A stretch of 64,000 bases of DNA. It comes from Kryptolebias marmoratus. Taxonomy: Eukaryota; Chordata; Actinopteri; Cyprinodontiformes; Rivulidae. Positions 6,218 through 54,600 of this stretch are shown piece by piece. A model generated the notes under the pieces. The model ran no database searches and had not been told where the DNA came from. It saw only the letters and a list, made by a program, of their open reading frames with translations. Made by a program: the position numbers and the translations under genes. Every line of letters begins with the position of its first letter. Position 1 is the first letter of the stretch. The stretch is from assembly GCF_001649575.2 (NCBI RefSeq), contig NC_051439.1:15807705-15871704 (forward strand), given 5' to 3'.

Positions 6218-7077
6218 CTGGAATGGAAAAATGGAAAAAAACAATCATAGGAACGTGCACAAAAACAAACAATCACATGCTTGTAAAATTATCCCCAAGT
6301 CAAGGCAGTGATAAAGAGGAACAGAGAGTTTAGGCAGTATCAGTTTGTTTTTTTCTTTAACTTCCTCTTTCTAGGAACACTAAATTTATTCTTTTAGCAA
6401 TCGCAAGAGTCAAAAGAAATAAGAGGAACCAGAACTTGCTGGTATTTGTTCCGTTTAGTGTATTTTTAAACTAACAAACAAAATTTGAGAGACTGTTATT
6501 TTCTCTTGATGCAGAGATACCATGAGGCCCCTACCTTCAGCAGCATCCAGGATATACAGGTGAAAGGTGTGCTCATCTCCAGGAGGAGTGTAACCATGGC
6601 CAGATAGTGGCCCTGGGAATCCCACACCACCATTCCTGCATATCCTGACAGGGCGTAGAAATGATGCATGGCCAGCGGGAGGTCGAACGACCGAAACACC
6701 ACATTGGATGCGTGAAGTGCTACGTTTTCAAAGACAAAAAAGCCTGTGGCTGTGAGGATGTGAAACCATGACCAGTCCTCTTGGCCCCTGAATCTGTCTT
6801 TGAGCAGCACAGAGTCCTCGGTCAGAGCCCGAAATCCCGCTACAGTACTCTGGATGCCAAACGCTGCCCGAGTGGCCGCCAGGTTCCAGAAAACCTTCTC
6901 CTTGGCTAAGAGGGAGCTGTATGTGCAGGACAGAGCCAGAGACAGGAGGTGGGAGAGGAGGAATACTGCTGTGTAGAAGCCAAGCCCCGCACCAATGAGC
7001 TGGAGGCGATAGTCCCATGAGAAGTACTCTGCGCTGGGCTGGGGTAGTGGGGGGGCCTGCTGCTCAGGACCCACCAT
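5891..7077 (-). CDS. cln8: Cln8, ER transmembrane protein of the TRAM-LAG1-CLN8 family
   Basis: Coding exons at 7077-6535 and 6217-5891 join in phase 0 (CTGAAG|GTAGGG donor, CCATTCCAG acceptor) to give 289 codons plus stop; human CLN8 has 286 residues. The ATG at 7077 sits in a strong context (AACACCATGG). The family is an ER/ERGIC multipass membrane protein with a TLC domain. CLN8 acts as a cargo receptor carrying lysosomal enzymes from ER to Golgi, and human mutations cause neuronal ceroid lipofuscinosis. Diagnostic blocks seen are [48 protein letters not shown], and LLTLIINP followed by WTHKK and LLNPVDWNF. Several hydrophobic segments fit the multipass topology. The end is oddly different: the deduced C-terminus GSGKPHAN has no dilysine, whereas human CLN8 ends in an ER-retrieval KKRP. 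The neighbour upstream on the same strand is dlgap2, as in human. Confidence 0.96.
6535..7077 (-). CDS. cln8: cln8 first coding exon
   Basis: Encodes residues 1-181, from the start codon to SWMLLK. It includes the first membrane segments and the conserved [12 protein letters not shown] and [10 protein letters not shown] blocks. The donor is CTGAAG|GTAGGG with its GT at 6534-6533. The exon extends as 5' UTR to an acceptor at about 7166 (TTTTCCAG). Confidence 0.93.
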
Positions 7078-7522
7078 GGTGTTTATGGGAGGAAGCTGAA
7101 TCAGAGCTAGGAGGTTTCACCTGGAGGTGGAGGCTTCATATGGCACATGCATGGTGTGAGGCTCACCTGGAAAACACAAATCAAGCTGATAAACAAAATA
7201 CAACCACATACATTTCTGTTATAACATATTTACTGTGATTAAATGCTAATCTTGCACATCTCAAATAAGCTGCATCGTAACAGATAATGTTTTTCCATTA
7301 TCTCAGTAAAACCTGACAGATAAGACTTTACAACTTGTGTAGCTTCAACAATCCCAAACGCTCTCCTGTAGATAGTCGCTAAAAAAGTAGTTTTATAACA
7401 ACTTTTATCGCCAAAGCTAGCTAACTTTCCACCGTATCAACACAAAAAACAAACAAATCTGCGACTAAGACAAGCTAACAGAAGAGTGAGCTATTTAAAG
7501 AAATAAAAATTACTATGAACTT

Positions 7523-18600: not shown

Positions 18601-21600
18601 AGGGAGACACCCTTCCCGATTCGCCCGACGAGGCGGCGCTCTCTCGGGGGGAGGGGGGCTCGAGCTGCCAGGTGGTTTCGCTGGTGGTCTCTCGAGGACT
18701 GGGTGGCTCAGCTGGGGTGCGGTAATCATCGCGGTAGCTAAAGAGGCCCTGGGTGCGAACGGTCCGCACGGCTCCATACTGGGTCGGCGTGCTGGGCTCC
18801 GAGTGCCGCTGGAACCCCCCTCCGAACTGCAGGCCCTTGTCCTCCATGGTGGGAAAACACTCCAACTCCAAGTCAGCCTGCACGGCTGCGGTCACACTGT
18901 TGGAGCGTTTGAACCTTCCCTGTCTGAGGAGTTGAAAGGAAGGGATGAAAGTCCACAAAATGACAAATAATAGCACTGAAAACAGGGCTTATGTGTATTA
19001 TAGTGAGATGAAACATCAAAGACAGAATTTTTTTGTAATGAGACTAATACCTAAGAGCCATTAGCTCACCCTTTTTTGTCGTCCTCTACCTGGATCCCAA
19101 CAGAGTGGAACTCCCGGCAGCCTTTGCTTTCAGACTCTGAGTCCGTGGCTGCTTCCACCTTAAATGATAAAAAAAAAGGAACAATGCTTCTCATTATGTG
19201 AGTTACCATTCCCCCGTGCTTCTGGCTTTATTGGTCTGGGAATGAACAGAACAACTTAACTGTACATGGCATGTCAGGGAGTAAACATTATATGATTTAT
19301 GGAGGCTGTAAAGGCTTTGGTACAGTGGAGTTTAGGTTTCTATAGAATTTAATTGAAACTGTGAAACAGGGTTTATTTTATTGCTCGCAATAAAGCAAAT
19401 ATTTGTTAGGTGTTCATGATTGGTAAAATGGTAAAATGGTAAAACCAGTTACAGATTTTCTGTGGGAAATCACTAAAGTGATGTCATGTCGTATGGATTT
19501 TTATAGATTTTATAGATTTCAACAGTATGGTTTTCTGTTACATTGCTTTGTTTCATTCCTTGAAATTATTCCCTGATTTGTTTCCACTGGTACCCCCTTA
19601 CACCCGGCCAATATTTACAGTTTAGTTCCTTTTTATGTCATCCTTGTCCTACCTTTCCTTGTAGTTTTTCATTTTAGCAACAAATCCTGTTTATCACCCA
19701 TCAAAATGAAAGGTGTGTGTGTTTTATTTGACTGTTAGCAAAATATCTCATAAACCACTGGATGGGTTTTAGTGAAACTCATGACAAATTGTGATTTATT
19801 TGACCAACCTATAGACTGCTTGCTCCCTACATAATTCTACAAGGCTGATTTATTTATGACTAATAGATACTTTGAACTGAAACAGCCTGTGGGAGAGCCA
19901 ATACAACTTTAATAACCAAATAGCAGAAAGTATGACCAACGTGGTTTGAGATAAATATACAACCTGGCCAGGTGAACAGAGGATAGAAGTATATATGGGG
20001 AGATGGTTGATTGGTGAAAGACAGCAGCTGAACTAATGAAGAATATAAAAGAGGTGAGAGTAACAGCAACATTATAAGAACAAAACAAAGCACCTAATTA
20101 AAGTGAAAACACAAAATAACTAAAGACAACAAAAGCTCAAACCTAACCCTTTTTCAGATTTTCAAATACTTTTGAACACTTGGTGAGTTATCAGTCAGCA
20201 TCATGAGGTTGTCATCCAAAGGTTTTCACTTGACAGAGCTCACACATATGTTGAATACGTGTTGAATGCTTTTGCTTCCCATCCTATTTATCACCTGGCA
20301 ACTTAATCCTGTGAAGAGTGGCGAGGGGCCGGAGCTGACATTAAGGTGAGCGGCAAGGTCAATTGGAAAATCGAATAGAGGATGAAATCCCAACATACAC
20401 ACTCACACTCACACCTGGCGCAGGCGTACGAATTGTGGAATAATTTAAAAGTCATACAGATAAGAAGTAAACTCCACCCAATCAAGCTGGCTCACTTCTG
20501 GATCAAACCATTCCAGAAGTAATTTAAATAATTTAATTTAAAGACTAAACAGCGTTAGTAGTAAAACTATCTGACAATATCAAAGGTATATTTTTGATTT
20601 GTATGAAACCTACAGTTTACCTCAACTTTTCATTTGTTACATTTTCATTTTATCAAGTACAGAAAGACCATAATTTACCTTTTTGTGTGTTTGGTTTAAA
20701 CATTTTTTAAATAAAATAATTATTAACTATAAAATGAGTTTGTTTGAGAATCTCTTTTCACAAACACTTCTTCCAACAATTAAAACTTTTTTTGTTTCTA
20801 AATCAGAATTTTATTTAATCCACTCTGTTAGAGGAATGTGGCCTAATAAATTTCCATAATTACTGTATTTTACTCTGCTTATAAATGTGGAAAACAGTTC
20901 AAATTATTGTTAAAACAGTCGTGAACATCAGTTGTTACACTGAGTGGGCTTGGTGTCGAGAAACAACCTCGACCTTTTTTCCTCCTGTGGTTGCCATGGT
21001 GAACTGAGGTATCCATTGAAAAGGCTTTTTATTGAACTCGTGCGCGCTCTCAACTCAAGGTGAAGATACTCAGAGTTGATTGAACTTATTTTAATCAGCT
21101 GTCTGGAGATGGGAAGCTGAAAGTTTCCCGACTCGTTGACTCAAGAGTTTACGGAAAAAACTTTGTTTGTTGAAAGTCCTTTACTCCCGGACTATCTACA
21201 GACTCAAAGGCTCTTTACTGCTGTCTGCTCTACTCCCTGAAGCTAGATATTTAAACACATAAAAGCAAAACTCTGTGTTCACACTTTTGCTATCCATTTT
21301 TTATTTTATTTTTTGTTCCCTGTTGCTCTTCGCTTCGCAGTTTAATTTCTGTCTTTCACCTCTCTCATTGTCAAACATTCACATTAATTTCCTGCTCGCC
21401 TATTGTCCCAGTCTCCGTCTTTCTAGGCTGAGTGAAGCTTCTCTTTGTCATTTTTAGTCATTTCAGTCTTTATTCCTTTATGCCTAGTGGGTCCCTTTTT
21501 ATTATGACAGAACCAGCTACAGAATGAGAATAAAAATATGTTTTTGAGAGCTATTGAGAGAAACACACGGTCACTGATGGCCAGCAGTTTGGCTTTTGTT

Positions 21601-27600: not shown

Positions 27601-30600
27601 GTTTTCTTTTTTCTTTGAGTAGTAAGAAGACATCACAAATATGCGAGTCTCAAGGAGAATCACTGAATGTGGACAACAGATCCCTCACGAGAACACCGAG
27701 TGGAAGACGGATGGAGAAAAGAGGCAGAAAGGAAGAAGAACGAGAGGAGACTTGGATCAGCGGTGCCTTTGGAAACAATGACAGAAGGGTACAGTGAGCA
27801 GAGAAGCAGTGAATGAACAATGAGCATACTACCATTCACCAAAACCCGCTCCAGCCTGCGTTGAATCCTAATTAATGGGTTGCAGTGAGATGACTCACTC
27901 TTGCTATTTTTAGCTGCCGAGGACAGCACTGTTCTTCTGTTGAATTTATATTTGTGCAACTGCTCAGTTTTATTATAACCATGCATAATTTAGAGTTGTA
28001 GCAAGCGATGCGCTCATTTGATCATACTGGGGATCCTTTTTTTTTACACTCTCATTAGCGGACTAACCTGTATGCCGATAGACGATCGAGGCGTTTTCAA
28101 GTACTCCTCAGCCTTCGACACCAGGATGGCCTTGTCGCAGGTGAGCACTGAGCTGTGTGAGTCTGTGGACGGATGCCTTTTTCCAGCCATGACTCCCGCC
28201 GCCTCCATGGCTATGGTCACAGCCTTGGTGCTGTCCAGGCTGTCGGTGGAGTTATAGAGGGGCCGGCCTGGGCTCAGCCCCAGGCCGAGGCCATCCGGGG
28301 CCCACATCCCACCGTGGGGGTGCCTTCCCTCGTGGTAGGCGTCCTGCGTGGACTCGGTGCTGCTCTGGGCTGTGATGGAGATGAGCGGTTTAGAGGTGGT
28401 GCGCGGCGGGACCGGAGGTGGGGCCTTCTTGTAGTTTGGGGTGTAGGTGATGGCTGGAAAAGGTAGAGAAACATATTTGAAAAGCTCATTATGTTTTGGA
28501 AAAAAAATCTGACTATAAAAGAAAACAAACAAGTTGACTTTAAAAGAAGAGGCTTAAATTGGATAAAGTTAGAAAACTTTGTCATTGAGGGTAAAAACAA
28601 CATTAATCTCAGGTCTCCACCACACTCATCTCTTGGAAATGTGCAGTACATTTTTGTTACTGTTTAGTTAAAAAGTAAGTTTTGAAAAAAAAGTTGCATT
28701 GACGCAAAAATAAACTCAAACTTGCATTAGTTTTTGTCCAACATTATAGGTAAAAAACATGTTTTTATGCATCTGGAATACAGTCCATTATATCATAATT
28801 GCTTTCACTAAAAAATACAGACTGTACGCAATTTAATCTGGACTATTTGATTTTATCCGTTTTATCAAAGCTCCTGCCAGAAAGTTTTAAATAAGGCTGA
28901 TTAAGCTCATCAGTGTTTGGATAATCTTTGGGGTTACCAAAGGTTAAAATCCCATGTCTGTCGCAGAACTGCCACACTAACAACCTGGTAAAGATCTGAT
29001 AGTGAGGACTGGTTTGCCAGAACTGGAAAAGAAAGAAACCATAAACTGAACAAGGTGAATTTATCATCACCACAAAAAGCAGAAGACAGTTTTTCAGTCC
29101 AATATTAAGATTTCTTCTTATTTTACTTGTTAGTTTCTTTGTCACCATTAAAATACTTCGATACAAAAAAAATATCAGAAGACTCGTAAATTCTAAAAAT
29201 AAAATGTCAGCTGATCCATCCCCCAAAAGATGTTAATTGAGCCTCAAATCAGTTAAAGGAAGAAGTTAGATTTCAAAATTCCACCTGATACCAACAGGGG
29301 GTTTTCACAGTTCTTTTGGTTACACAGTTTAAATAAAAAAAGACTAAAATATTCAAATGAGTTCTGCCTGAGCTCTAAGATTTATGGTTTTTCATATAAA
29401 CATTTCACTGCCTCATAGGTTTTACCTCCCTTAGTCCTAATTCTGATGTCTGTCACCACGTTTTGCTCGACTAATTCAGCAAAAATTACAACATATTAAA
29501 AAACAACTTATAGAAACAGCAGGAGGATAGCTGCAGTGGCACTCTTCAGAACTGTCCAAATTAGTATTTATTATTTACATTTATTGGCTTGTGATTGTTT
29601 ATTACAGAAACCCAGAATTTCCACTCTTATCTACCAAGCTGTAGGTTAGTAAGGCTACGTTTTGCATTTATATAGACACTCGTTAACACTAATTTTCTAA
29701 CATTTTCAAAGCATTTTTATAGTGGAAAACCTCTTCCCTTCTTTTTTTGTTTCTTCTTAGGGCTCAGATGAGGGAGAGACTGGTTGGAAATATCACAAAC
29801 ATACACAGCACTTTCAAGTAATAACACCAGTTGGGTGGATTGGGAGAACATGAAAACCTTTGTGGTATGAGGCTCTCATGAGATATGGACGATGGCGGAA
29901 AATCAGCGAGGTAATAAACAACACTCGTGTGAACAATCCGGCTCAAAGAAAGCTGACAAGTCTTCATACTCTGTCCGTTTTTATGACAGAAAGGAGAGGG
30001 ATTACTTTCTTTCAAGTGCAAATGAGAGGATGGACCTAATCCACAGCGAGACAGGCGGATGAACAGGTCACAAACACCTTCTAGGCTTCCGTACAAGTAA
30101 ATCAGAAGAAGTGGGGAAAAATAAAAAACAATCTCAAGTTATGTTGAAGGCTATTATTTTTCTCGGTACAGAGATAAAATGTGTTGAACACTGTGCTTGT
30201 GTTTCCTAGAAATGTTTACATCACACAAAGCAGGTACAGAAGACCAATCTGCTCTCTTCTTTCAGTTCTAATGAGCTCCATGTAGGTCCTCGTGAGACAG
30301 CTGTGGCACAAAATAATGTTTCACCTCATTACACTGCAGCCTGAACGCAACAATTACAGAACATATTGTTGTCTAAAACAAAGGATTGTCTCGTTTTTTT
30401 ATGTTTCGCAGCTTAAAAACCGCTGTAATTTTTTAGTAAAGACGAAACCCTGCGATGCATTGTCGCCTTTTGTTCGACCTTATTTTGGTCGTGATGATAA
30501 ATAGTCTGGTCTGCTCTGAGTTCCAAATGACTCACAGTGCTCTCCATTTACAAAATGACCCATCATGGATGCATCTGCAGAAAAATAAGCAAGAAATTAA

Positions 30601-36600: not shown

Positions 36601-39600
36601 CAGTATATGAGATGCACAAAACATTGAGGCCATCAGTCATGCACCATTACATCAACAGATGCATGATTCACCGTCACACGTATTTAAAAATAGCCACACA
36701 ATGGTGCAAAAATCTTTTAAGGAAGAAACACAGTTCAACAAGTCATTACACTTATGTCCCATTGGCAATACATTCTCAGTCTTTGATTCCTGAGCATTAA
36801 GGTGATATTTGACAATAAAAAATACATAATCACCTCTAAACAATGCTTGTTGTATTTTTTTTAGTCACATAATCAGACAAACTGAATGTTTTTTTTTTTA
36901 ATTTTATATACATTATTTATTTATATATATTTGAAATAAACTTATTTTACAGTATAGCACATGTGTGTGTGTAAGGTAATGTGAGGTTGTGCATTCAATC
37001 AGGCTACATACTGCAACTGTAACATACTGGTTTAACTATATTTGAAAGTCTAACTTGGGTTTTTTTTCCTAATAAATTAGTTATTTGCAAAAAAAATACA
37101 CAACCATGTCATAAGAGCCATATTTTGACTGAGAATATTTTTAAATATAGTGTGCAAGTCCTAATTCATGAAGACACAAAGATGGTTTTCAAGGATTTTG
37201 AAAATAATTCAGTGCCTCACCTTCTGCTGTTTTTTCTTTTTTTAAAGTTCAATAATATTTAGAGAAAAATCTCACATTTTCTTTGCTGCAGGGGATTCCT
37301 TTTATCTATTTTTAAGCTTATAACAAAAGTCTGTAATTGACCCAAACAATAATTTGTGACAGCTGTAACAGTACAGTATTCAGTCTTTATCTAAGATTGT
37401 GCAAACAGCATTTCACAGCATCGCATCCTTTTTCTTTCCATCTGTAGAGTCCATCCTACAGCTCAAATGGTAAACAGTGTCTTTATAGTTATATGATAAC
37501 CAACAGGATTTATTTCTCTCAACTTCAGAGCTCAAAAGAAGTTGAGGAGTGAAACGTTTCAGTCATTGCTGCAAGGATTGTCGATTTTGTCTGTAGTCTT
37601 TACCAGAGCTCCTGAAAGAGTCTCTTCGCATACAGAAGTTTAAGACATGTTTAGATTGTACAAAAACATTCATCACTAGTTTGCACAAGGATCTCAAGCA
37701 TTATGCTTAAGAGTAGAAGATGATTCACAACAGAGGCAACCACTTCATTGAGATTCATCCAGATTCCAGAAAAAGGTTTTTGAAGTTTTCAGTGTTTTTG
37801 TCACTACAGAAGCTTAATTATATGTTTGCAGTATCCTGTAATCCACACAGTTCTGTTGCTCCCAGTGAAGTCTTTATTCATGGATTATTAGTACAGAGAA
37901 ATGTTACTTGGATGCCAGGGATTATCGTTTTTAGGTCTGCATGTCATTTTTCAAAGCACTGGCATCTATAAACCATGAGCTATAAATATCTTTGAAGCTA
38001 CATTTTGTCTGCTGAGAGAGGTATGGGCTCACAGAGTAAGAGACACATATGTGATTTCTGAACTGTTGTATTCGTATCGACCACTCCACAGCTCCACGCT
38101 GGCACTCCTTCTCACTGAGTCGCGCCTTTTGCCTCTCCTCTGCCACCTGTGCCACAGAAAAGTCTGCTCGACTGAGGATCTCCCCGAGCTGCTCAAGGTC
38201 TCCTCTTCCACATCACCAACAGCCTCCAGAGATACGGCCACACACTCCAATGACTCTGCCATAACATCATCTGGCTGCACAAGTTCTTGGAGATCTGGGG
38301 ATGATGGTTCTGTATCAGACAGAGCAGATTCTGGCGCTGGGCTTGTCGGTCCAAAGTCAATTTCCAGTGATGTGTCTGGAGATACCGAACTAGGAGGGGA
38401 TATTGTGACAGTGACCTGTGGAAAAAGAACTTCTCGTAATTCTGAGGCTACATCATGAGTCATGTGAACTAATGGATCTTCCACAGATGGACCCAAACAG
38501 TCTAACTCTGCTGATGGATCCATGAAGCACTTTGTGTCAGGATCATCAGCTGGTACAGGGAAACTCTGAGAATCGAACTGGTATGCCGGTGGTTCTAAAT
38601 CCTCAGCGTTGAATGAAGAGTCTGTACTCAGGTTAAAAGGCTCTGGTTCAGGGTCCATAAAAACTGAGTCAAGGTCATCTTGATCTAGGGAAGTCAGCAT
38701 GACTAAGTCAAAGTGGACCAGATCGGCATGGTATATGCGGGTGGCTTCCAGCGGATCTGGTAGAGGTGGCCACTCTGAGTCTTGGGAAACTGGTTCGGTG
38801 TTTGGTTGAGATTCCACTGAACTGGAAGCAAAGGTTGACACAGACATAATTTGTTCTGGAGGAGGATAATCAGGAACAGGAATAACTGGATCTAGATTTG
38901 TCTCACTATCAGTTGGACTTTCAGGTGAGTCTGTATCAAAGTACTCTGAGACTACAATGGCCGGGCATTTGATGTCAGTCAGTAAATTACATGGCAGAAC
39001 AGTATCACGTTGAAGTAAAGGTACATCACAAACTGATGGTGAGTCTTCTTTACTAAAGGAGATTGATGGCGATACAATGGGTATGTTTGTTGCTTTTGGT
39101 TCCATCTCTGTTGAATCTGAGGGATCCGAACCTTCTAATCCCGAACAAGGTAAAGACACAGCAGGTGGGTCTTGAGAGACAGGCTGTGGCTCATCGTCTT
39201 TGACAAAATCTGAAGATTCAGGATCTGAGACTATGTCATACTCATGCTCCTCTGGTGGCGACACAGTAACTGTAGGGACTGGATATGGTAATTTTATCTT
39301 ATCTCGTTCAATTTGCTCTGAGCCTTGGGAGTTCACGTTATCAGGTTGCGATTGTTCAGTGTGTAAATGGCACTCATTAGTTGGGACTACATCTATTAGT
39401 TGTGGGGTGATAATCATTTCTTGTTTCACTGTTGATGAATCTTGAGCACTTTGGCGAGCTGTTTCTGAAAATGGTGGCACTGCATCTTGAGTTGTTTTTT
39501 GCTGATTTGTAACAGGATCAGATGAAGTTGCAATAGTTTTGACTGGCAGTACTGGATCTGGTTTTGGTTCAGCTGTAGAGGGTATAACAGTTGTGTCAAA

Positions 39601-42600
39601 TGGCTCTCGCTGGACTGTTTTTGTAGAACCAATAACGATTGGGTCCAAAGATAGTGGAATGGCACTCTCTACATACATTGACTGCGGACATGCAAGGATG
39701 CTCGGGTCCATTGAGAGCTGTTTTGGCAAACTTTTGCGAGCATTTTTCTTTTCCTCCTTTTCTTCAGGACAGTTAACAGCTGCATCTGCAGTGCTTTGCC
39801 TGACCAGGACTTTGCTTCTTGCCTGAATCCCCACTGATACTTTTGATACTTGGGCTTTTTTCTCTCTTGCTCCCCCAGTGCCTTTATCTGCTGCAGCTGT
39901 TCCAACTCCTCCTGTCTCTTGGCCTGCCCCAACTTTTGTTCCTGTCCCTGAACCAGTCCCAGCCACTTTGCCTAAGCTTCCACCAGATCCTGCCATCATG
40001 CTGCCACCTTGAGGAGACCACGTGTTATAATGCTGTGTGAAAGTGTTGAAATTAGTGTTGAAAGCACGAAGTTCTTTACACAGGTCCCTCCTGAGCTCAG
40101 CTAACTCTTGACGCATGGCAGAAACCTCCTCCTTCCACTGCATGCTGATGGCGGCAGCCAGTGTGGCGGACTCTTTGATGCTGGCCTGGATGTCTTTTGG
40201 TGATGGTCGTTCTGGTGCACTAGATCTGGGAGATCTGAAGAGACTTGGAGAAACAGGTGGTCCAGACACAGGTTTTGCTGTTGCCCCCTCAGGTTCATGG
40301 TGGTACAGTCTGTCTCTTCTGATGGGGCAGCCAAGATCATCATGTGTCAGTGGGGCTGAGTCTGGCAAATCCTCATGAATACTGTCTTGGTCGGGTAAAC
40401 AAGTTTCATCCTGCACATAATTCCTGTCTGGAAGACAAATGTAAATATGTATCTGTAATATGGCCACAGGTGTGAGCAGCTGGAGAGAATGTGCTGTTTA
40501 TTGCCACAAAAACACTAACATTGTGTCATGCACTGAATACCATGAGTCAAAACAAGATAACAGCTGGAATATATTCCATCCAAGTGCTAAAGTACGATTA
40601 TTGTTCCAATTTACTCATGAGAATAACAGATATTATTTTAAAGCTGAAATTTACAAGAGCATTACAACCTACTGCATATCAAAGGACTCCTATTTTGACT
40701 CATTTCATGTAATCGCTTACACTGCCTTCTCAGTCTTAATTTGTGGCATGCATCCTTCACGTCTTTTCAAAGCACAAAGCTAAAACTCTGAAGTGTCGAA
40801 GCACATCACAGGAAAAAAAGGACAAAATCTATAATATTTTGGGCTGTAAATCGGAGGCTTCTCTTTTTGACGAAGAAAAGAAAATGCAAACTTTGTGCAG
40901 TGAAAAGAGGCAAAGGTGAGCAAAGCTTGCAAACATTTTTTTTTCATCAATCAGGAAAGTATAGTATGAACCCTATTGAAACAATGAAGTCCAATTTGAC
41001 CGACTGCATAAAAGCAATAGTTGCTTCAAGTTTAAAATAGGTTGCAGCATTCATTTTACACATGACTTTTCATCTTACAGATAGAATCGTTTTAAGATTA
41101 TAGAGAAAGCAGTGTAAGCAAACATTCATTAGTTATAAAGATTAGACAAGAAGCACATCTCCAGATGTTCAGACCTCTAACTCTCCCTACAATAACCCAG
41201 CTTATGTTAGATTTTTAAACTACAGAAGGAGGAGGTAGCATCCATTCAGACTTCTTGTCCGGGGACATTTTCTTCTTTTCTTCCCATTTTCTTCATCGTT
41301 ACAAAGAAGTTTTGTTTCATTTGTGAATCCAGCAACCATTGGAGTGTTGAAACCACCAGGAGTTTACAATTTATAATCAAGGCCCAGTATCAGAAGTAAA
41401 TGCATATGACAACTGAGTAGGTTTAGAATTACGGTGTTATAGACGACTAATCACTGTCACAGTTTTGTTACCAGTGTTGTTATTGTCAGCTTGGTATTAC
41501 GTATTACCGAGGCCTAGACTTAATAGATTTCATTTCTGGAGCGGGATCTCTTTGTGTGTTACCATGAGTTTTTAATAAGCTCTGACAAATAACCTGTGTG
41601 AAGCAAACAGTTTTTATGCAAAGAGATTTCACAGCTCTGACATTTCTGTTTAAACTTGGCTTACAAGCTAGAAATGCTCTTCATAAGGTTAATTGCACCA
41701 TTTGTTTGTCCAGTTGGAAATCAGAATTCAGAAAGTTAGATTTACAAAATGTAGTGGAAGGAGAACATGTGTCCCTGTTCTGACTTGACTTTTATTTCAG
41801 ATGATGTCCATTTGGGACTTTCAATAGGGTTCATAGCTTTACTTTCTGATGCATCCCAGGGATAAGCAAATCAAGCACCATATCCAAAATACAGTGGGAT
41901 GGTCTGGCACAGCTCACAGGTGATAACTACTATAATCATACCTCCATGAAAAATGGAAACAAACAAAAGTAACTCATGCAGCAAAAATAGGAACTGGTTC
42001 ACACTAACTGCTCTACAATTACCCAAAACAACAACATCAGATGGTTTTTGTGCTAATTCAATAGCTCTTTCAGGCAAGCAAGATACAAACTTCCAAGACC
42101 TCATTATTGGATTGTTCAAAGCAATTTCAGCTTTACTTGTCCTCACCTGTAGTTGACCTGATAGTGGAGGTGACGGTGGACGCCATGGGGGGGATGCAGT
42201 CGTCGTCTTGGGAGTAGCCAGCTTGGATGGCTCGCAGGTAGCTGTGGCTCCGGGTTCTGAAACAACCTGGGAGGTCCAGAGCCTCCATGGCCTGGGACTC
42301 CACCTCACTGAAGACCGACTCGCACACAGACTCAAACTGGCCGTTCACTTCTGTTTCACTCACCTAGAAGAGACACGAGCCGTAAGCACACTTTCTCTAG
42401 TGAGACGGTGTCTCTGTTTCTGTAGAGCAGCAAATGAGCTGATTATAAAACCTTGTGTGAGACATTGTCTATCTGTCTTTATCATTTAGGATGAAGAGAG
42501 GTGTTATGGTTGAAATCAAATAAAAAACCAAATCATAGAGAACAATGAAAAAAGCCATACTTTGGGGATGACACAAATGATCTTATTTGGGTTGACTGGA

Positions 42601-45600
42601 AACTGTCTTAGTAGCTTTAGCTGATAACCTGTGGACAGATGTCTTTTACTTGTATTGCTCTGCATCTGGCTTTCTGCAAACATCAGACAACAGCATATAT
42701 ATTTTCATGAAGTCAAGGTCATGATGTGCTGTAGATGTGGCATTTTTAGTAATGGTCTGGGTACAGATTTAATCCAAATAGTGAATAAAGTCAAAACTGT
42801 TTGATATTCCCATCTGGCAATATCTAGACTCAAAGATAAACATCTTGTTCTACAGGGATTTAGAATTAGTGAGGTTTAGTAGAGCTTTTAGGACTCCTAA
42901 CGAATCAATAAGTTTCTCTTTTAGGTGGGAGATAAATATCTCAACAACCTCTGTTGGAGTCCTTTAATCCAGATAAACATAGTGAAACAAACTACTGTAT
43001 GAGAAATGTTTAACAAAATTTAAGTCAGAAAAAAAAATTACATAGATGATGAAATTGAGAAAATCAATTATATGAAAACTGATCATTACTCTCTTGCTGC
43101 TTTGGTTACATTTACAGTATAGTGTTGTAATAAGGGAGGCTCTTGTATGGCAACACATTTAAATAATTCAGTAATCTCGTGTTGTGCTTTTATGCTAAGA
43201 CAATGTCACCTTGCCATTGATTTCCATTTTAGGGCATAAGCTTTAAGCGCAGCATTCCTAGAACACATAAATGTTTGCTTGACAAATTTAATATTGATCT
43301 CAATTTCCTTAGAAACATTCACAACATGAACATCTAAACTGCAGCTTTGCACTTTTTATTGAAGAATAAAAAACAATTACAACCAAATAATTAATTATTA
43401 CTTTAACATAGACAGTCAAACTTGTGCCTTAATGTTATTTTGCTAAGGTTTTAAATAAAAGAAGAACCTTAACTTTTTTTTTCAAATCAGATCTAATGCA
43501 CAAGTGCAACTAAATGGAAATAATCTGAAATTATATGAAAATTTCCTGCAGACTTCCAGATCCCAGCAGTCTGGGGGAAACATTTTAGAGTTTAGCACAC
43601 TCACCTGGCTCACTTGGCTCACACAGCTAGCCTGACTGAGCGTGCTGACGGCCCGCATGTAGCTCTGGTTCCTGGAGCGAAACTTGGGGGAGTTGTAATT
43701 GGTTGAGGGATTCAGTGCAAGGCTGGGATGTATTTCCCTGGTGGCCTGCAAGTGGTAGCTCTGACTGAATACAGAAAAGGAGAAATAAATCAGTTAAATG
43801 TAATCGAACTGAAAGCAAGCAGTTTAAATGATGGTTACAGGTGCAACATGATGGCAAAAAAAACTTATTAGGTGCTCCTAAAATCAAAGGATATCTCTGG
43901 GGAAGTTTGTGAAGACAACTATTGACGACATTTTGTCCCTCAAAAAGGGGAAGCCCTCTCTTTTTTTTGCTACTCTGCCTCACTACATGCTCAATGGTGT
44001 CCTTAGTAAGGCAGTTCGATTTTTGATGAGCTGAAACATCCAATCAATGCTTAGAAAATGAGTGGAATGCAAATCAGGAGCTAGTTAGTGAGCAAGCACT
44101 TCTGAGAGAGCGCCCCGGAGTCAGCCGGGTCAATTAAATGTGCTGGGCGAGAGATGCTCAAAAAGCCATGACCGGTTGGAAATCTGCTGGAGAGAAGATG
44201 AGGAGAGGGAGCGAGCTTTATGTAAACTGAAGAATACTATGTGAGTCACTACAGAAACACCAAAGCGAGGTTTGATCTATTTCTAAAAGCAGACGGGGAT
44301 GAGTAAGCAGTTTCTGGGCTTATCACACACATAAACACAAATGTTTGCCAACGAGAAAAAGCCAGTGTGATTACAAGTCCCCCAGTCCTTCCTGTGCTGC
44401 TGTAGCAAGGGCCTGCATTTCTGCAAAAAAATTATTAGAGACCTTCGCAAGACCCAAAGGCTTTCTAAGCAAATCAAAAGGCAACTTCAAAATCTGAATA
44501 ATGTGTTCATTTCTAGCACAATACTTCAGTTTAAGCAACATATACAATGATAGTTAATTAATATTATTGAATATTTAATTTGTTTCATATGGCTTCATGC
44601 TTATTAGCAGATCGCCCTGGGTGACCTTTCAGTGACAGGTCTTGATTGTTCGCTCATATTAAAGACGTCAGCAGGGCAGCGAGCCAGCTGGCAACGAGGT
44701 CTGACCACTGCGACACGGCAGCACCAGAGAGGTGACGGGGGACACTACGTTTGTATTCACCTTAAGTCTGCAGCAAAATTGGTGATGTAGTTATGCATGT
44801 CACTGTTGATTTTATCCAGATGATAAGAGCTGTGGGTAGAGAAGAAAACAGAGTTACTGAGTCTTACAAGGGGCTGCTGGATGGGATGTCTTAGAGCATA
44901 AAGTCTAATGGAAGTACAGTGCTGTGCAAACGTCTGAAATCACCCTCGATTTCTTTGTACTTTGCTTCCAAGGAGACAGACATGCTTGTAATCTTTTAAA
45001 ATGATCTTGATCAGTAGCTCTCTAGAAGTTATGGAGACCTGAAAGTTTTTCTTTGGATTTTTTTTACTCGTTTTCTGTTTGGTCCTTGTACCCGACCATG
45101 GCAGCATGTTACTGTGTGTCTGTATGCAGCGTGTGCTTAAAAAAATATTAGGAAAGTAAAAATTAGAGGATGAAACACAAACTGTAAGGCCTAAAACATA
45201 TCTACAGCAGTAGATTCTGTAAGAATCTCTGAAAGTCACGTATTTAAGAAGAAAAAGCAAAAACAAATACAAAAATCTGACACATGACATGTAAGATGCA
45301 TCATCTTTTAGATAAAAGTTTATCTTATATGACAAACTGTACACTTTAGTATTTTTCATAGATTTAGCTAAAAAAAGGAAACACACTGTGTCTTTGTGAC
45401 AGGCTGCTGGTGCCTTAATATCAAATAAAAATAAAGTTTTTTGCTAAGCTGTCTTTATGTGTCAACACTGATTCATTCCTTGACTTTAGGAGCCATTTTA
45501 ATTACCAGAATGAGTCATGGAACAGACTTAAGTGCCTTAGCAAGGCAACAAACACTCTTCTGAAAATGCTAAGGTACCGGACTCTAAAAGCAACCAAAGT

Positions 45601-51600: not shown

Positions 51601-54600
51601 CGAACTGGAGATTATTCACTCAGATCTTGATATATGCATTTTTTTTTCTTTTAGAAAGTTTCTAGAAAACTATCTCACCCTGCCTTTCCTGCATGACTTT
51701 GTGACAGCGAAGCTGCATTTTAGAAGATTGTAGTGGTATCAATTAAAATGTCAGGGTTTCAAACAAATAAAGAGACAAACTAGAAAATTAAGACATGATC
51801 AAATACATATCAGATACTTCTGAATACAGCAAACGTGGTAAAGGACAGACTTTTGATGCAGCGTGTCGTACCTCTGGGTGTCCAGCAGGTCCTTGGGTCT
51901 GATGATGGCCTTGATGAGGGCATCTGGTCGCACTGACTTCTGCGGCGAAGTTTTGGGGCTGGAGTCCGACTCTCCGCTCTCCTCGTCCCCCATGGCTTTG
52001 ACGTAGCTGCTGCTCCGCATCCGACGACAAGGAATCTCATCATCCTTCCCACCGCCAGGGTAGCCCCCCCACTCGTCCTGGGGTACCTGTTGAGTGGAAT
52101 ATCGGAAAACACACAGAGGTTGGTTTGTGTTTTAACCCCCTTCTGCCGAAGCAGTATGACCTCTAATGGTCACCTTGACCGAAATGCAACATCTTGCACA
52201 GTAACTTGTTGAAAAACACAAATATACTTTCTTGATAAGCCAATGCTAATTAAAACCTTGACACAGCTTCAACAGATGCTCCACATGTACAATTTAATCT
52301 AGTTTGGCCAGAGTACAAAGAGCCAAAAAGTTTGACTGAAATGCTTTTGTAAAACGAGCTGCTCTTTTAATCATAATTTCCGTTGGAAGACTGTCAGATC
52401 TGCGTCAAAGGTGCCATCTTTGCTCACTCTGTTGTAGCCATCACACCTGCCATCAACACAAGCCAGGCAGGATCCGTGTTGCAATTTTCTTCCACTCTTT
52501 AAAGCGGGTAATTAAAAATCCAGCCGTAAGCATCACCATTATCCCATTTCAGAGAGTGAACGGGGAGTCCCACTTACACTTGCTGCCCGTCTTCATTTGG
52601 AAGTGAATATTTCACGCGGCACAAACAATATAAAGCTACTCTTAAATTTTAAATGTGAGCAGAGAGCCAACATCTTGCATACACGCAGAGCAGAACTAGC
52701 AACTTGGATATTAACATTTTTATTGTTGGAATTAATTTCAAGCAGGGCACAATTTATTACTAACAAAGAGTGGTAAGAATACAGATAATATGAAGCAAAA
52801 TTACTTTCTGAGTCATGATTGTACACCAAAGGAACAATGTGAGATTTTAATAGTACATCCCATTACACCACACATAGTAATGTTATTATAGAATTTTAAT
52901 AGCTTTCTATAATGAGGATGGTGGTAGAGCTTATTAAAATCTGGGGGACTAACTTCCAACAGTATAATGGACCAACGCTGTTTGTTTGCAATGTCATTGC
53001 ACACAAAACCCCCGTCACTCTTGATATGTATCACTTTTTTGTCTTCCTCACACATTATTTTTTCATTAAACACAGCAAGTGAGTTGATTATAGAAACAGC
53101 TGAGTCAAGATCGGAGGTTTTCTCACAAAAACGGCTCAAGAAGACACACAAACATGTCGATTTTCACACAAATGCACTCCTGCTGATTGTCCTCAAAGCT
53201 TGGCTTGCTCGCACAATCATAAAATATGACATTGTCAGTAATCATTAAATTTAGTGAGATAGTTGAAGTCTTCCCTGATGCTATATTCATTCATCACTTT
53301 AACATCCTGGCCCTAAGCTCAAATTCCTCTGCCTCGATATTTTATTAAGAGAAATCTGAGCCTTGTTCATTGGTCTTTGAACCATAAAAAGGGTTTTAAA
53401 TTTTGCAAACCACTATCGATAAAGTTAAATATTGAACAAATGTGTTACACTCATAATGATGACGTGTTTTCCCTGGCCGTCAGTGACTAACTCGCTGTTC
53501 GCAAGTTCACAGTGAACTGGGCGCCAGCAGAGCGTCACTGGCAAATGTCAGGAAGAGATAGGCTGCATCTAAATGTCACTAATGTGTCAGACACATTTAT
53601 GCAAACTGAGATCTGATTAGCATTTAAAAGCAAATGAAAACAGAGCTGATCCTTTATAATATCAGGTTACTAAAGATGAAAGCATTTAAGCATCTTTTAT
53701 ACAAGAAAAACAACAACAAAACAAGCTTCAAGCTTTGACAGAAAATGGCTTTACCCTGACATTATTTCTCAGTAACATTAATTTCCCAGCATTAATGCGT
53801 TCCCTTCCACAGCCGTGAAAGGGAACGCATCAAATCAAATCAAAACTTTAATTCAATAATAGCTTTATCAAGGAAAAAAAGTATTTTAATGACAGAAAAT
53901 GTTGAATCAAAACCTTTGTTGATAGTTGCATTATATTTATTTAAAAGCTACAAAGGAAGAACAAGTGATTGATAAAATCTACAACCCAGAAAATCTAGAA
54001 ACTGGGAACTAATGTTTTGAAAAGTGGCACTGATTAAGCACACGCAACATGGAGTGAGACATTTACAGAGCAAATGTCAAAGATAAAAATATACCCAAGG
54101 ACAAAAGGACATTCTGCAAACATGCGTGGCTCAATCAAACTTACTTTTATTCCAAACATGCGCTCACATGCATTAGGACCTAAGCCCGAACTGACACTAA
54201 TAAGAGTCATTCATCTCCGCTCCTCGGACAGGGGTGCACCATCTACTGAATAGAGTGGATGGGTTAATTAAGTCTTGGAGGGGTTTGATATTTTTAGACA
54301 TCTAATTAATGAAGGGAACGCCAGCGGACAGGCGCAAGCTGCGGCGAGATTTGTTTAATTTGGATTCGCTGATAAACCGCGGAGATTGCGGGGTGTCTCC
54401 CTGCGAAGACGGCAACAAAAAGAGACTGTGGGCACCGGAGTCAGTTTGTGCTGACTCTGTGAAAACACACACATCATCCAACGATTCGAGCAAGAGCTGA
54501 AAAATATATTAATAGAAAGTTTCTAAAATCTTTTGAAGTTTTCATTTATTACATGCCCTCAGTGTAATTCTGTAACTTGACTGTAGCTCACCTGTCAGTG

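Follow-up and report, generated by a model that had tools for sequence, protein, structure and literature searches.

A probable alternative terminal exon of dlgap2a in teleost fishes and the synaptic scaffold isoform it would encode

What does a long open reading frame inside an intron of a synaptic scaffold gene encode? In excitatory synapses, DLGAP proteins connect the PSD-95 layer with the Shank layer, and the dlgap2a gene of the fish Kryptolebias marmoratus carries such a frame on its own strand, between two coding exons termed E and F. The stretch analyzed, hereafter the window, comprises 64,000 nucleotides (contig NC_051439.1 of assembly GCF_001649575.2, positions 15,807,705 to 15,871,704), and all coordinates below refer to it. 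An earlier note on this DNA had proposed that the frame is an alternative last exon of dlgap2 that continues exon E. We conclude, with a probability of about 0.9, that it is an alternative terminal exon of dlgap2a in teleosts, and we consider what the resulting protein would keep, lose and gain.

Frame, splice sites and gene models

The frame is bounded by splice sites of matching phase and is conserved, and the isoform containing it is already annotated in public databases in many species. An open reading frame scan of the minus strand found 822 stop-free codons, from 40497 to a TGA at 38031-38029; counted from the acceptor, whose first exon base is 40427, there are 798 codons and one split codon. 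This length is far beyond chance, the longest stop-free runs in 60 order-1 Markov windows having a mean of 157 codons (maximum 209), and those in Markov windows with the exon's own composition a mean of 188 (maximum 246). The acceptor reads tatttacatttgtcttccag/ACAGG (the slash marks the splice boundary), with C or T at 14 of the last 20 intron bases. Exon E ends in CAACTACAG/gtgagg, its donor lying after 42147 in phase 1, and canonical exon F begins at 28453 (ttttccag/CCATCACC), likewise in phase 1. Joining 42147 to 40427 leaves a single frame open, through STIRSTT-D-RNYVQ to the final stop and a C-terminal SLTL, and the remaining two frames hold 30 and 58 stops. Within the alternative exon the earliest ATG is codon 95. 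These results agree with the earlier description of a frame of about 798 codons on the dlgap2 strand in the E-F intron, with a good acceptor leaving the phase of the exon E donor and exon F acceptor and with no ATG in about its first 90 codons. A candidate poly(A) signal, AATAAA, lies 150 nucleotides 3' of the stop, but is weak evidence because two further AATAAA and one ATTAAA occur within 1.2 kb downstream.

In unspliced sequences of many relatives, the intron directly upstream of the acceptor (40428-40497, minus strand) translates similarly (about AILQIHIYICLPD). Judged from the bases adjoining the exon, this peptide-like similarity may reflect conserved splicing signals.

A protein search of 5.8 billion proteins with the translated exon gave at least 110 matches with E ≤ 1 among 7995 candidates scored. 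A region search with a salmonid relative as query gave 109 matches (E ≤ 10) among 2227 candidates, and a 12-sequence profile search gave at least 130, the best 120 of them listed, among 7995 candidates scored; search candidates had to share 5-residue words and fall within a length range. The collected set, the window's own protein included, numbers 137 proteins. Most of the names shown are "uncharacterized protein dlgap2a isoform .." or "Disks large-associated protein 2". Evidence-based annotation may lie behind names such as "isoform 2-T2". One catfish version of the isoform, from Hemibagrus wyckioides (P0133), bears the name "proteoglycan 4 isoform X6", which is misleading for a product of dlgap2a.

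The junction of exon E with the alternative exon, which the proposed last exon predicts, is present by a strict pattern in 51/137 proteins, each a gene model from a database (an ncbi, uniref or nr entry), and can be seen by eye in three others that the pattern missed (P0039, P0104 and P0130). Two models map onto the window exon by exon. Isoform X2 of Nothobranchius furzeri (P0118, 1420 amino acids) corresponds to segments 62373-61216, 52089-51874, 44846-44763, 43769-about 43596 and 42381-42148, and then to 40428-38032; a Labrus protein (P0035) has the same segments except for the first (62298-61216) and exon E (42363-42148).

Euteleost-type sequences retain the frame at 50-84% identity, and ostariophysan-type ones at 33-34%. 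Against the window, the N. furzeri model has 93.6-95.8% identity in three shared stretches and 79 and 88% in two short ones, versus 70% in the alternative exon, which by this comparison evolves faster than the shared half of the protein, yet with strong conserved islands. The matches listed include acanthomorphs (e.g. Oryzias, Takifugu, Dicentrarchus, Syngnathus and Xiphophorus), the salmonids Salvelinus and Coregonus, the Esociformes Umbra and Dallia, and the ostariophysans Tachysurus, Hemibagrus, Bagarius, Electrophorus, Acnodon and Prochilodus (catfishes, electric fish and characins). We take all species shown to be teleosts. The exon's occurrence in ostariophysans as well as euteleosts suggests that their common ancestor already had it. 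No relative outside teleosts occurs among the listed matches with a species shown (7995, 2227 and 7995 candidates scored); no cypriniform, clupeiform, gar or tetrapod name is among them either, which does not prove absence from these groups.

The alternative C-terminus and its candidate binding sites

The alternative protein consists of the usual DLGAP2 N-terminal half and a new C-terminus of 799 residues (1420 residues in all in the N. furzeri model). Upstream of the exon it retains three PSD-95-type repeats, both in the window and in that model, as found by a pattern search. GKAP is described as having five PSD-95 motifs (PMC12797016), the pattern used finding three here. A family search matched no family, the GKAP domain (PF03359) included, in the N. 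furzeri and Labrus proteins; P0130, which combines part of the alternative exon with the canonical C-terminus and serves as a positive control for PF03359 only, scores 472.5 bits.

The QTRL Shank ligand (IEIYIPEAQTRL in canonical DLGAP) and both canonical LC8 sites are missing as well. The proteins end instead in SLTL (107/137, the window protein among them), SLSI (11) or SLSL (10), together 128/137, the other nine ending in QTRL (six), FPQI, RGSD and VALG (one each). By sequence these three ends would be class II PDZ ligands, which we take to be defined by a hydrophobic residue at positions 0 and -2. Removal of QTRL from SAPAP raises the Kd for Shank3 from 0.022 to 63.3 µM (quoted in PMC6337207).

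We followed conservation in a 42-sequence alignment (the window, 33 euteleost-type and 8 ostariophysan-type sequences, grouped by sequence as most lack a species name). Identity to the window, taken in 20-residue blocks, falls in sharp blocks. The helix region, residues 81-140, has 91-100% identity in euteleost-type and 55-89% in ostariophysan-type sequences, and residues 201-220 (QARSKVLVRQSTADAAVNCP) have 97 and 85%, respectively. In euteleost-type sequences residues 241-260 reach 96% and residues 561-600 reach 87 and 92%, neither stretch being conserved in the ostariophysan type (15-20%); the C-terminal 18 residues have 91 and 42%. The glycine linker blocks at 141-180 have 40% identity, and blocks 261-740 mostly 30-55%, with higher values at 381-400, 481-500, 541-600 and 661-700.

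From the same alignment AlphaFold2 predicts a single long helix (residues 76-134; 59 residues), the rest having mostly low predicted local distance difference test (pLDDT) scores: block values are 81-95 over residues 71-130 and 66 for 131-140, the mean is 43.9, and 676 of 798 residues fall below 50. In its best heptad register the helix has hydrophobic residues at 75% of a/d positions, by a simple count made without a coiled-coil program. Such a register is what a coiled-coil dimer would have, dimerization itself being beyond a monomer model. Residues 261-740 hold 93 acidic versus 18 basic residues and are predicted to form a long disordered region with conserved islands. The Seriola lalandi dorsalis protein (P0117) has in its acidic region a run of DPxPLxPDTDP-like repeats unseen in the other sequences read, and the region therefore tolerates repeat expansion. 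Pfam contains no family matching the window protein, and 12 aligned members gave nothing beyond weak matches, to FAM184 (4 members, best E 0.067) and to Mating_N (2 members, best E 0.08); searches of the PDB by sequence or profile gave no match at E up to 10. The family search, the C-terminal ends and the pattern search above agree with the earlier note on removal of the GKAP domain, a class II-type SLTL in place of QTRL, and retention of the PSD-95-binding repeats.

A candidate site for LC8 (DYNLL) lies 62 residues after the predicted helix, in a segment with pLDDT below 50. The earlier note mentions neither this site nor the AATAAA and the blocks of conservation described above. A pattern of the VSVG(T/I)QA type that also required the conserved block behind it was found in 135/137 proteins, the misses being P0101 and P0130. 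The residue before Q is T in 124 of the matched sequences and I in 11, as in the window species; VSVGTQAR accounts for 100/135 and VSVSTQAG for 14. The segment has the (T/V/I)Q core of LC8 motifs in a context predicted to be disordered. The phage-selected DYNLL optimum is VSRGTQTE, and the partners of DYNLL often have flanking coiled coils (PMC3078936); VSVGTQ equals this optimum at positions -5 to 0 save -3. We put LC8 binding by the alternative tail, as predicted from the motif, at even odds.

LC8 is believed to promote the dimerization of canonical GKAP, which carries two non-canonical sites for it, one of type IGIQxD and one of type GVQV, with a linker of 17 residues between them (PMC12797016). 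The canonical exons of the window contain SIGIQ (28082) and SVGIQV (near 19101), and the splice choice would therefore lose both canonical candidates and bring in another. No homology between the alternative exon and the canonical C-terminus was detectable by hhalign or by local alignment with shuffles, and we read the LC8-like site of the alternative exon as an independent gain. We considered and rejected a duplication of the canonical C-terminus, or of the LC8 region in it, as the source of the exon: the single match from hhalign was irrelevant (P-value 0.062, probability 0.5%), between 8 and 67 of 200 shuffles equalled the local alignment of the whole exon with six canonical C-termini, and 213 to 270 of 500 shuffles reached the alignment score of a 60-residue block.

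Table 1. Positions in the window of the dlgap2a features discussed in the text
Feature	Position	Strand	Basis
dlgap2a exon E, last shared exon, with PSD-95-type repeat RSHSYLRA (42252-42229)	42147..42363	-	mapping of gene models, donor phase 1
Alternative terminal exon, coding part including stop	38029..40427	-	frame, gene models
Acceptor region of alternative exon	40428..40447	-	tatttacatttgtcttccag
Long helix predicted at exon residues 76-134, with coiled-coil register	40024..40200	-	AlphaFold2, heptad count
LC8/DYNLL-like site VSVGIQAR, exon residues 196-203	39817..39840	-	pattern in 135/137; comparison with published motif
Conserved acidic-hydrophobic island, residues 561-600	38626..38745	-	87 and 92% identity (33 euteleost-type) vs 15 and 18% (8 ostariophysan-type)
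C-terminal SLTL, class II-type PDZ ligand by sequence	38032..38043	-	end counts in 137 proteins
Candidate poly(A) signal AATAAA	37873..37878	-	weak alone
PSD-95-type repeat RSSSYVKA, kept in alternative isoform	51994..52017	-	pattern search
PSD-95-type repeat RNQSYMRA, kept in alternative isoform	43650..43673	-	pattern search
Canonical exon F, skipped in alternative isoform; its end SIGIQ starts a GKAP-type LC8 site	28068..28453	-	

Elsewhere in the E-F intron we noted a 60-nucleotide candidate cassette exon (33970-33911, minus strand) flanked by good splice sites, both in phase 1. It would encode about GIQFCLPVTCSTDWKPQATP, and similar segments stand ahead of exon F in P0116, P0129 and P0130. 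An open frame at 6496-7116 (minus strand) is presumably a CLN8-like gene, which would fit a DLGAP2-CLN8 neighborhood.

Proposed function and competing explanations

A transcript in which exon E joins 40427 rather than exon F would end in the alternative exon, and its product should still dock on PSD-95-type guanylate-kinase domains. Lacking the GKAP domain, the Shank ligand and both canonical LC8 sites, this product would not recruit Shank by the known route; the helix and adjacent LC8-like site could mediate self-association, and the SLTL end could bind a class II-type PDZ partner. The most likely product, in our view, would be a self-associating PSD-95-bound scaffold that is unable to recruit Shank by the known route and offers another PDZ ligand. 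Beside canonical DLGAPs, such an isoform might compete for PSD-95, loosen the Shank layer and so uncouple PSD-95 from Shank, a mechanism that we advance at somewhat less than even odds. When GKAP is lost through TRIM3 in rat neurons, Shank1 also disappears from synapses (PMC2844417), a result that fits uncoupling and is no test of it. More tentatively, some teleost lineages may possess a built-in uncoupler of the PSD-95-DLGAP-Shank chain, a splice choice that exchanges the Shank-binding half for a self-associating, LC8-stabilized tail with a class II-type PDZ ligand, this large C-terminus having no detectable ancestry and no tetrapod counterpart within the searches made.

The isoform may instead serve trafficking or localization, its helix and LC8-like site tying PSD-95 cargo to LC8 complexes, with loss of Shank binding as a by-product. 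This is a real possibility, though short of probable. Between euteleost-type and ostariophysan-type sequences, conservation is highest in the helix and in the LC8-like block, and the GKAP-LC8 interaction has been proposed for motor-based trafficking of the PSD-95 complex (PMC12797016); LC8 binding is, however, a prediction for the new tail, and the present data do not separate trafficking from uncoupling.

Several observations weigh against a terminal dlgap2a exon or the scaffold proposed from it. The junction evidence consists of annotated gene models, and the exon E junction is absent from all lgn and ena sequences in the collected set. Thirty sequences (26 lgn, 3 ena and 1 ncbi) extend upstream into the intron, and look genomic because they read on into it. 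Eight of the 137 models read on into canonical sequence (P0095, P0102, P0116, P0126, P0127, P0129, P0130 and P0134); the last exon residue matched in seven of them is 233, 601, 735, 765, 780, 787 or 798, and in P0134 the BLAST match stops at 220, yet the sequence retains tail residues. P0126, P0129 and P0130 also omit parts of the alternative exon. As to the scaffold, a monomer model cannot show dimerization, and at +1 and +2 the LC8-like site carries A and R where T and E are preferred, with I for T at -1 in the window species.

These junction data bear first on mis-annotation, by which a conserved open frame would be spliced rarely or never into dlgap2a mRNA and software models would have been copied between species. 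The junction is missing from raw-assembly sequences, and the scattered exits of the read-on models, which look like software avoiding a stop, indicate that prediction programs struggle at this exon. Against this, a frame of nearly 800 codons that has stayed open in over 100 of the collected sequences, and whose blocks and C-terminus are conserved, needs a protein product, and its conserved phase suits exon E; we regard mis-annotation as improbable. Still less probable is the alternative raised in the earlier note, the last exon of an unrelated nested gene with its own promoter and upstream exon. A protein without a recognized domain or homology to the canonical C-terminus, evolving faster than the shared exons (70% vs 79-96% identity to N. 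furzeri), would suit such a gene. Its phase, however, equals that of exons E and F, models with an upstream junction join exon E, and with the earliest ATG at codon 95 there is no start codon near the acceptor, although a distant first exon could supply one. A cassette exon that splices onward to the canonical exons is the least likely, though some rare internal splicing may occur, as the eight read-on models that favor it leave the exon at differing places, three of them skipping parts of it, and 128/137 proteins end at the exon's own stop.

Read as an alternative terminal exon of dlgap2a, the frame specifies an isoform known as database models. We found no paper describing the exon: the extracts of the literature searched contained no published description, and the mention of dlgap2a found there was in a study on allelic DNA methylation. 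If true, a conserved ending with one of the two links retained and the other lost would be a natural separation-of-function form, and would show how a large disordered C-terminus without recognized ancestry joined a core synaptic scaffold in one vertebrate lineage. Laboratory fish carry it, Oryzias and Nothobranchius models being among the matches, and editing a shared dlgap2a exon in such fish may affect two different proteins.

Comparison with known systems

Like the LC8/DYNLL partners with an adjoining coiled coil (PMC3078936, PMC12797016), the alternative tail has a similar site past a predicted helix, but it has A and R in place of T and E after Q and a single candidate site. With the canonical DLGAP/SAPAP/GKAP scaffolds (PF03359) the isoform shares its gene, its N-terminal half and its PSD-95-type repeats; it differs in having a new 799-residue tail and in lacking PF03359, the IEIYIPEAQTRL Shank ligand and the canonical LC8 sites. 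Short scaffold isoforms of the Homer1a type, Homer1a itself lacking a coiled coil, resemble it in proposed logic only, one binding face being kept and another lost. Homer1a is named as a regulator in PMC10322149. It is the product of an unrelated gene, whereas the alternative end of dlgap2a is long and seemingly self-associating.

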